NCBI RefSeq assembly: GCF_029338295.1
Contig: NZ_CP119791.1
Coordinates: forward strand, 2,728,001 to 2,792,000
Length of the DNA stretch: 64,000 bases
Direction: 5' to 3'
From: Haladaptatus sp. QDMS2
GTDB taxonomy: Archaea; Halobacteriota; Halobacteria; Halobacteriales; Halococcaceae
Below are positions 26,190 to 28,142 of the stretch, one piece after another. Position numbers and translations under genes: made by a program. Under the pieces are notes generated by a model that had not been told where the DNA came from, did not search any database, and saw only the letters and a program-made list of their open reading frames with translations. How positions within the stretch are numbered: position 1 is the first letter of the stretch; every line of letters starts with the position of its first letter.

Positions 26190-26307
26190 TTTGTTACTCG
26201 TGTTTCCTTTTTTGAATCATTGTGTCGGAGTGTTCCCAGTCTGTACACAGGACCACGGCGAATATACCCATCCTATTCTCCCGCTCCCCTGGAATATGTC
26301 GTTGGCA

Positions 26308-26335
26308 AGGGTGCTTCTGAACATAGAAGCACCCT
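26308..26335. repeat. perfect 11-bp stem hairpin in the origin region
   Basis: AGGGTGCTTCT (26308-26318), loop GAACAT, then AGAAGCACCCT (26325-26335). No T-run follows, so it is not an obvious terminator. A second smaller inverted repeat, CAGACA-TG-TGTCTG, lies at 26356-26369. They could be part of a small RNA, a protein site or an origin structural element. Confidence 0.75.
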
Positions 26336-26645
26336 GAATTCACTTAAGCGTGCGTCAGACATGTGTCTGGATTTATAGACAACCCACGAACGTTGGCCTC
26401 AAGGGTGTTTCGGTGCCGTAGACGAGCGAGACTGTGAAACCGAACCCGAGTCCATGAGGGAAACGGATGCAGAAAGGTGAATGGGTGATGGTCGAAGGAA
26501 AGGGAGAGTGTGGTGGGGAGGAAGGATGGGTTTGTGGAGAGGGAGCAATGGTAGAGAGAGCGTGGTGATGGGGAAAGACGGGGTTGGGAAGGAAGGACGG
26601 GATTGTAGAGGGAAAGACGGGATTGTAGAGAAAGAGCGTGGTGTA

Positions 26646-26669
26646 ACTCCAGTTGAAATGGAGGGGTTG
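26646..26669 (+). repeat. ORB-like element
   Basis: ACTCCAGTTGAAATGGAGGG followed by GTTG matches the ORB at 27471-27494 (reverse strand) in 19 of 24 positions, including the G-string. It lies at the end of the purine-rich tract. Confidence 0.55.
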
Positions 26670-26908
26670 TGAGGGAGGGGATTCGCTCGATTTCAACTGC
26701 GAGGGCAGATGAGACGGTCAATTTATTCGTCGGTAGAGATGGGCAACCGGAAGACTGGCGTTCCACTTGAACCGGTCGGCTGGGCGCGATATATTGATGA
26801 TTGTTCATTTAGATTATGGGGTCGGGTCGGGAGAAGAGGCGAGAACAGGGCTCTCCCAGGAGATATCGAATAGTTACGAAACGTGAGAGAACGGAGGACG
26901 GGGAAGGA

Positions 26909-26937
26909 GCCCCCCACCCCCTTGTTTCGAGTCGAGA
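26909..26937 (-). repeat. origin recognition box with long G-string
   Basis: On the minus strand the element ends CGAAACAAGGGGGTGGGGGG, matching the ORB at 27105-27133 in 23 of 29 positions. The G-string points left, so this box and the next one face outward around an AT-richer 167-base core. Confidence 0.72.
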
Positions 26938-27104
26938 GGGGAGAAAGAGAGGGGGTGGGGAGCTGCCGCTTACCCTTATTTCAGCCCTAGAACCACCAAA
27001 ACCATTACCGCGAGGTCTACTACGGTTATGGTTGGGGCATCTATCATATAAAGATACCTCTTTTGATAGACCTCTCCTCACACCCCCTCCCCCTCCTTTT
27101 CTCC

Positions 27105-27133
27105 GTTCCACCGGAAACAAAGGGGTGGGGGGC
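27105..27133 (+). repeat. origin recognition box with long G-string
   Basis: GTTCCACCGGAAACAAAGGG followed by GTGGGGGGC is a full haloarchaeal ORB (dyad TTCCACCGGAA plus G-string), the sequence bound by Orc1 through its winged helix and AAA+ domains in archaea studied so far. Confidence 0.88.
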
Positions 27134-27251
27134 ACCCCTTCTCTCATATCCACTCCTTCTCTCACCAGCTTCCCCTCGTGACGCGCCATTCACAGAAACC
27201 ACGACGCTCCAGCCTCCTTCCCTGTCTCCAGACTGCCCGTCCAATTCTCAC

Positions 27252-27315
27252 CTAGAGGTTCCTCTAGCAAAGACCATTCTGAACCTTTCCTTCTAGTGCA
27301 AACTAGTACCACTAG
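27252..27315. repeat. CTAG palindrome cluster in the origin
   Basis: Five CTAG sites in 64 bases (27252, 27264, 27293, 27303, 27312). The first two form the inverted repeat CTAGAGG-TT-CCTCTAG; the other three are nested: CTAGTG, then ACTAGT, then CACTAG. CTAG is otherwise sparse in this window. It lies between ORBs at 27105 and 27471. CTAG is a known haloarchaeal methylation motif. Confidence 0.7.
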
Positions 27316-27333
27316 AGGAATTCTGTGCTTGCG

Positions 27334-27355
27334 ACCCCTCCGCTTCCAGTCGAAC
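27334..27355 (-). repeat. degenerate ORB
   Basis: On the minus strand GTTCGACTGGAAGCGGAGGG then GT differs from the 27471-27494 box at four of 22 positions. It is 20 bases from the CTAG cluster and has the same orientation as the box at 27471. Confidence 0.55.
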
Positions 27356-27470
27356 CTTCCGCTGTTCCCGAGATCTCCCGGTGATTTCCTTGCGCGCGGT
27401 CTCACCTGTTCGTGGGTTCAGTTCGCCGCCGTCCCTCCATATTTGCGGCAATATTCCCACCACTGTTGGA

Positions 27471-27494
27471 CAACCCCTTCGTTTCCACTGGAAC
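27471..27494 (-). repeat. origin recognition box
   Basis: On the minus strand GTTCCAGTGGAAACGAAGGG then GTTG: a perfect dyad TTCCAxTGGAA with G-string, the haloarchaeal ORB consensus form. It converges on the box at 27105-27133 across 337 bases that contain the CTAG cluster. Confidence 0.88.
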
Positions 27495-27511
27495 GGTTAG
27501 TGCAGACTACT

Positions 27512-27549
27512 TGGTCCCTCTGTAGATCAGTGGTCCCTCTGTGGATTAG
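27512..27549. repeat. two tandem 19-base repeats
   Basis: TGGTCCCTCTGTAGATCAG at 27512-27530 is followed by TGGTCCCTCTGTGGATTAG at 27531-27549, immediately beyond an ORB. A further partial unit (TGTCCCTCAGGG) follows. Confidence 0.7.
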
Positions 27550-27704
27550 TGTCCCTCAGGGCTCAGAGATTCCTCTGGGAGTCCTATTTGGGAAAGTTTG
27601 TGGATCCTGTAAGGGAAATCCTGTTCGGGAGATGCCGAACGCTCGGTGCGAAGCGAAGAACCTGAAAGCGATGCGCAACTCGTCCTTCCCAGAAGGTCAA
27701 ATTC

Positions 27705-27764
27705 GGATAGGACCCGCTGAACGAGGATAGGACCCGCTGAACGAGGATAGGACCCGCTGAACGA
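27705..27764. repeat. three perfect 20-base tandem repeats (iteron-like)
   Basis: GGATAGGACCCGCTGAACGA occurs three times without spacers (27705-27724, 27725-27744, 27745-27764). It does not resemble the ORB sequence. A perfect palindrome CTCGATCGAG follows at 27771-27780. It could bind another factor or be a replication-slippage product. Confidence 0.85.
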
Positions 27765-28112
27765 GGTCGACTCGATCGAGTGAATTCGAATTGCGATAGA
27801 ATTCAATTTGACATGAAACCCGATTCGACACGAACGGTGAACCCGAGACACTCTGGTTCGAGTTGAAACCCCACTCCTCACGACGGCTTGCATCGTGACT
27901 GCTGGTCCAATCGAAACTATCCGGACGAGTGAGGGTTCGAGACTGTCGATTCCACGTGAATCTCGGCGGAAAATCTATCTGTGAAGCACAACATTTAATA
28001 GAATCTCTACCTCTGGTTCGTGTGCATCAAGTGGACAGACGGCCGCACACCCAATGGCCTGCAGGAAGGATTCTAGGGCCGTTCCGGGGCTCTCCTCCCG
28101 GCTGCCGTGCCT

Positions 28113-28133
28113 GTTCCACCCGAAAGATAGGGG
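28113..28133 (+). promoter_or_regulatory. ORB overlapping the orc1 promoter
   Basis: GTTCCACCCGAAAGATAGGG then G agrees with the box at 27105 at 18 of its 21 core positions and ends nine bases before the orc1 ATG at 28143, where core promoter or transcript start should lie. Orc1 autoregulation is the natural inference. Confidence 0.65.
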
Positions 28134-28142
28134 ATATCATCG

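Follow-up and report, generated by a model that had tools for sequence, protein, structure and literature searches.

The replication origin oriC1 of Haladaptatus sp. QDMS2 appears to be surrounded by Orc1 boxes (ORBs) that form a set centred on it and reach roughly 200 kb to either side, and in many haloarchaea the best-conserved member of this set is an outward-facing ORB pair located inside the protein-coding sequence of DP1, the polymerase D small subunit. We propose that the ORBs outside the origin, referred to here as satellites, act as sinks or regulators of Orc1, and we assign the whole explanation, origin and satellites together, a probability of about 60%. The ORBs beyond the intergenic region are the unusual part; the origin itself is standard. 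Coordinates refer to the window, the whole 64-kb stretch of QDMS2 DNA that was analysed.

The origin region occupies the 1.95-kb gap between oapA and orc1 (26190-28142). It had been described as gene-free from the sequence alone, and we too found no convincing gene in it; it holds a cluster of ORBs. The oap genes adjoin it on one side, all on the minus strand: oapA (25548-26189), a small GTPase (MMR_HSR1, 2.1e-14) named from its position adjoining oapB and oapC, then oapB (25161-25541; PF09846, 1.7e-41) and oapC (24514-25161; PF09845, 2.1e-29). Adjacent on the other side is orc1 (28143-29648, plus strand), which encodes an ORC1-type replication protein (NF001625, E 9e-197). Beyond it are a sec11-like signal peptidase gene (30355-31008, minus strand; PF10502, 1.4e-4, slightly under the cut-off) and the DP1 gene (31144-32649, plus strand; NF003116, 9.8e-281), whose GTG start was inferred from the alignment. 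The family models thus bear out the proposed main-origin context for OapB, OapC, the GTPase at the oapA position, the ORC1-type initiator and DP1, and match sec11 weakly.

ORBs were scored with a position weight matrix whose training set was the outward ORB pairs at oriC1 in 60 related loci, the window excluded. It found eight matches of at least 8 bits in the 64-kb window, compared with one in ten order-2 Markov copies. Four lie in the origin region, at 26644(+), 26912(-), 27103(+) and 27469(-), and four outside it, at 21309(+), 24423(+), 40119(-) and 40201(+). The three strong ORBs named in the original prediction are all among the former. Two of them face outward and carry extended G-strings, the left at 26909-26939 (minus strand, 31.2 bits, match starting at 26912) and the right at 27103-27133 (plus strand, 42.3 bits), and the third (27469-27496, minus strand, 25.6 bits) has its G-string directed toward the core. 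A weaker outer box predicted near 26646 was recovered at 26644-26671 (plus strand, 9.1 bits), and on that side an ORB(+) also lies beyond the core pair in both congeners (L106 and L112, 18 and 16 bits). Two further predicted boxes are recognisable by eye and score low: a degenerate ORB at 27330-27357 (minus strand, -1.4 bits), with a counterpart in both congeners, and one immediately before orc1 at 28111-28138 (plus strand, -6.8 bits). In 32 of 73 loci, the 250 bp upstream of orc1 contain an ORB(+).

The outward boxes enclose a core (26940-27102) that is AT-richer, as had been noted, though modestly so: 49% AT, against 47% for the intergenic region and 38% for the window. The mean between outward ORBs in 65 related loci is 50%, and a strict outward ORB pair in the same gene order is present in 60 of 80 related loci. 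Just inside the boxes are the two arms of one internal inverted repeat: a G-rich arm (26950-26960, plus strand), at the position of the Haloarcula hispanica enhancer, and a C-rich arm (27083-27093, plus strand). According to the available part of the source, firing from the H. hispanica minimal oriC1 requires both ORBs and their G-strings and is boosted by the G-rich repeat (PMC3936714). Because the layout here matches that dissected origin, 26940-27102 is likely the unwinding interval and the best candidate for it. Orc1 would bind the two outward ORBs, the DNA between them would unwind, and the remaining ORBs and the G-rich repeat would tune the unwinding.

Given the ORB scores, the core geometry, the gene context from family models and the likeness to the H. 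hispanica minimal oriC1, the region is almost certainly the haloarchaeal oriC1, and its reading as the main origin stands. It shares with the oriC1-cdc6A origins of H. hispanica and Haloferax the oap/orc1 neighbourhood, outward ORBs with halophile G-strings, the inner G-rich inverted repeat and an AT-richer core; it differs in that the region spans 2 kb and contains, at 27469, a third strong ORB in facing orientation, and in being known from sequence. Taken purely as an origin, it is ordinary. Within the window the cumulative GC skew peaks at 26-28 kb, where its sign changes from plus to minus. Between the third ORB and orc1 there are also a 19-bp repeat in 2.5 copies (27512-27557) and a perfect 20-bp tandem repeat in 3.1 copies (27705-27766), and on the oapA side one strand is strongly purine-rich with degenerate repeats of about 20 bp (26494-26640). 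Ten Orc1/Cdc6 genes in the QDMS2 genome pass the family cut-off (main contig four, contig C2 four, C3 two), and further origins are therefore likely.

The facing ORBs at 27103(+) and 27469(-) flank a cluster of CTAG sites, as had been pointed out, with CTAG at 27252, 27264, 27293, 27303 and 27312 (cluster 27252-27315) and near-identical spacing in both congeners. Across the oriC1 regions of the window and related loci, CTAG occurs 427 times against 354 expected from composition (1.21-fold), compared with 116 of 632 expected in other intergenic DNA (0.18) and 275 of 3646 in coding DNA (0.08). Eleven other palindromic tetramers were tested, and none showed a comparable origin-specific rise. We do not consider the cluster novel, since Blow et al. 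(2016) already describe, in the part of their paper available, CTAG clusters at haloarchaeal orc1/cdc6 starts together with an orphan m4C methylase that targets CTAG (PMC4752239); the cluster in the window does not differ from these. The QDMS2 genome has one N6/N4 methylase gene.

The original inventory of ORBs was sound for the origin boxes and missed three of at least 17 bits elsewhere in the window. Two of these form an outward pair that lies 12.5 kb from the oriC1 core and is flanked by a bPH_2 gene and a MaoC gene, with a left box at 40119-40146 (minus strand, 17.5 bits) and a right box at 40201-40228 (plus strand, 31.6 bits), 82 bp from start to start. The third is a single ORB on the oapA side, 5.7 kb away, at 21309-21336 (plus strand, 17.5 bits), between the called genes 20211-21170 and 21386-22066. 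A weaker ORB at 24423 (plus strand, 10.5 bits) also lies between called genes, 1.8 kb outside the oriC1 region. Initiator boxes, as predicted by ORB match, are thus present outside the origin.

These satellites recur in relatives. The 40201 box is kept at the same place in both congeners, and its 40119 partner scores 10.4 bits in one (G001) and 3.8 bits in the other (G002) with the 82-bp spacing unchanged. More ORBs were found in the genus at about 34 kb (two genomes) and at 146-162 kb and 178-195 kb (three genomes each), and in the loci examined the congener satellites at 12, 34, about 150 and about 180-195 kb are intergenic. Four genomes of the sister genus carry another ORB in a common gene context, 123 kb (G006) and 131 kb (G010) from oriC1 on the oapA side where the distance could be read; this gene neighbourhood lies 4-7 kb from the ORB that QDMS2 has at 147 kb on the same side. 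The satellite boxes are very probably real, conserved Orc1-type sites.

Satellites cluster around oriC1. On 18 haloarchaeal chromosomes of related species, which are not independent samples, 55 of the 63 non-origin ORB loci lie within 200 kb of oriC1 where a uniform distribution would give 7.5; without the DP1 loci the count is 43 of 51, with 6.1 expected. Given this relatedness, nominal p-values would exaggerate the significance of the excess. For this count, non-origin loci were those more than 2.5 kb from oriC1, matches at most 500 bp apart were merged, and the ORB pattern used on the window's genus (three genomes) was one letter off that for the other 15. The count covered neither other replicons (C2 of G001, C4 of G397, C3 of G405, C2 and C3 of G409) nor the incomplete assemblies G395, G399, G400 and G403, and it treated G404 (a scaffold) and G409 (a contig) as circular. 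Each chromosome has one to eight such loci. The density of ORBs of at least 10 bits per kb is 1.78 in oriC1 regions, 0.58 in DP1 and 0.04 elsewhere in the oriC1-bearing loci. The satellites are thus placed near the origin, and would hence be duplicated early. Some of them may belong to other origins or to promoters, for example a trio at 82 kb in G402. In two genomes, satellites are nearly equidistant on the two sides of oriC1 (85.4 and 84.3 kb in G397, about 12.4 and 12.3 kb in G395), which may be coincidence.

The best-conserved satellite in many haloarchaea is the pair inside the DP1 gene, about 200-400 nt into the gene. We examined 83 DP1 loci, namely the window, both congeners and 80 named records. 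The distance from the best ORB(-) to the best ORB(+) match is exactly 57 nt in 71 of them, 54 nt in 2 and 72 nt in 1. As for the other nine, L038 has a pair at the usual spacing in the matrix scan, one has a pair at 78, and in seven (four Haloferax loci, the two congeners and the window) the pair is decayed. A match of at least 10 bits is present in 59 of the 83 loci, and DP1 ORBs that score less may bind Orc1 weakly. In the window, a decayed remnant is recognisable at 31333-31413 (plus strand), which encodes the peptides DPSTSTAD and PVETSPES and scores -11 bits at the left site, with no right site.

In samples of the whole class, whose genera are not independent, a strict search pattern for outward pairs, its gap free to vary from 36 to 66, matched 124 of 391 genomes (40 of 86 genera), and a fixed-gap pattern with up to three mismatches matched 202 of 381 genomes (56 of 85 genera). 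Among the strict matches listed, nearly all have one length, with seven places 12-18 nt longer. The reversed patterns, used as a control, gave 0 in every row of both samples, and the 30 class-sample matches that we retrieved were all within DP1. The fixed-gap pattern misses the window's family, whose pair is one codon closer; outside the window's genus, 12 of the 15 loci of this family with DP1 have the pair in that form. The pair stays in DP1 where the gene is about 13, 37, 85 or 130 kb from oriC1 (G399, G400, G397 and G396, respectively; in G396 only one DP1 box passes the search pattern). Since the window's genus, several Haloferax loci and the majority of members sampled from some families lack it or have a decayed copy, it is not essential everywhere. 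One locus, L081, has a weak DP1 pair and a strong pair outside DP1 at 2891(-)/2951(+), 60 bp apart. From these two cases, L081 and the window's genus, it is plausible that the intergenic 40119/40201 pair has replaced the lost DP1 pair.

We rejected the DP1 pair as a general archaeal feature, since ORB-like matches elsewhere in the phylum are at the level of shuffled DNA: 30 phylum DP1 loci (29 non-haloarchaeal and L179 from a haloarchaeal genome) gave 12 matches against 11 in shuffled DNA, and 30 haloarchaeal loci gave 70. ORB-like sites with 13-14 of 18 consensus positions do occur near DP1 in one non-haloarchaeal family (L166, L171, L172, L184 and L193).

Within DP1, the peptides specified by the two boxes, PSVSTG and PVETKGS, belong to a variable linker, and the boxes are kept as DNA, with a choice of rare codons beyond what the protein sequence explains. 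Where the residue is kept, the ORB codon is used almost invariably (GTT 53/53, ACT 62/62, GGA 66/66, CCA 66/66, GAA 71/71), against background uses of 6.7, 5.8, 9.2, 8.6 and 31%, respectively. This test covered 71 of the 83 loci, those with a spacing of 54, 57 or 72 and the expected frame, and so selects on the motif. A scan of the whole DP1 alignment that did not select on the motif nevertheless had ORB columns as the top 4 of 428 biased columns; the few high columns outside the ORBs were the GTG start codon, the sequence upstream of it and AGC serines. A spacing of 19 codons separates the boxes in 68 of 71 genes, whereas the flanking linker takes 32 different lengths to the start codon and 19 to the conserved core. 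The fixed spacing suggests that two Orc1 molecules act together at the pair. Separately, a single ORB-like box occurs about 390-640 nt from the start of the orc1 coding sequence in 11 loci (L045, L025, L063, L061 and seven more, most of them Natrialbaceae-like records), in plus orientation in 10; it is possibly another dual-coding site.

The DP1 motifs could instead be conserved for the protein or as an RNA hairpin, with their likeness to ORBs accidental. The peptides are indeed recognisable, and the arms could pair in RNA at 17.5 of 21 positions. However, there is no covariation between the arms (permutation gave at least the observed value 1659 times in 2000), for which reason we rejected the hairpin; synonymous choice is near-fixed on rare codons while one position varies among K, G, E and R, its box bases remaining purine; and each box is recognised by an ORB matrix whose training set was confined to oriC1 pairs. 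We see next to no chance that this reading is correct. Additional or dormant origins at the satellite pairs are also highly improbable. The outward polarity of the ORBs is that of the oriC1 core, but the DP1 ORB starts are 57 nt apart with 65% GC inside, unlike an unwinding element, compared with 161-741 nt in oriC1. The pairs have no unwinding region, and most sites have no adjacent initiator gene. We rejected a second origin at the pairs on spacing and GC content.

The main rival explanation is that satellites are operators through which Orc1, as a roadblock or repressor, couples transcription of nearby genes, DP1 included, to its own level or to origin firing. The intergenic position of the congener satellites, the persistence of the intragenic pair in DP1 tens of kb from oriC1 and the ORB(+) upstream of orc1 in many loci all favour such a role. 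On the other hand, the DP1 pair is well inside its gene, the genes beside other satellites have no common theme, and an operator role alone does not account for the clustering around oriC1; we consider it unlikely, if by no means negligible. Satellites might also organise the origin region, for example through looping or bridging by Orc1, in a layout comparable to bacterial origin-proximal parS sites. The origin-centred distribution over about 200 kb and the fixed spacing of the DP1 pair would suit this, but the few alternative spacings (54, 57 and 72 nt) show no helical-phase pattern and we know of no partner protein, so that looping seems quite improbable. We favour Orc1 sinks or regulators because the distribution is origin-centred, the satellites are not tied to one neighbouring gene, and oriC2D of H. 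hispanica offers an experimental precedent. Satellites near the origin would duplicate soon after firing, and the duplicated boxes would withdraw or inactivate Orc1, in the manner of datA, and the origin would not be reused at once. That satellites are sinks which limit re-initiation has, in our estimate, slightly less than an even chance. One to eight loci per chromosome are few for simple titration in polyploid haloarchaea, and active regulation by a paired site may therefore fit better. More tentatively again, the 19-codon DP1 pair and the origin-proximal boxes may be a dedicated haloarchaeal Orc1 control element, an archaeal counterpart of datA and DARS that is movable, as the 40119/40201 pair would illustrate.

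In E. coli, DARS are origin-distant initiator boxes that control re-initiation. The same is true of datA, according to the available text of PMC3936714; both differ from the satellites in acting on DnaA rather than, as proposed here, on Orc1, and share no homology with them. A closer likeness is oriC2D, a cluster of ORBs lying downstream of cdc6E by which oriC2 is negatively controlled; as far as the accessible part of that source goes, its ORBs too lie outside the origin proper and are proposed to bind the initiator and limit firing (PMC3936714). It differs in concentrating 11 ORBs within a single 722-bp intergenic region next to another origin, whereas the satellites, some single and some in spaced pairs, are scattered across about 400 kb around oriC1, with one intragenic in relatives. 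Published origin searches, in the parts available, targeted intergenic regions flanking orc/cdc6 genes (PMC3528665, PMC4441112, PMC4010727), and the literature searched, with its partial journal coverage, mentions neither ORBs within a polymerase gene nor a set of ORBs centred on an origin.

The presence of ORBs at conserved nearby places outside the origin suggests an unrecognised layer of control over the timing of chromosome copying. It bears on an open question, how archaea that combine bacterial-type origins with eukaryote-type initiators avoid double firing, for which one haloarchaeal mechanism, titration at oriC2, has been proposed in the available text of PMC3936714. If our reading is true, a conserved pair of Orc1 boxes outside oriC1, which in DP1 can be recoded silently, would make the control of re-initiation directly testable, and the DP1 pair would clearly exemplify how a DNA-binding site within a replication gene shapes the protein sequence.
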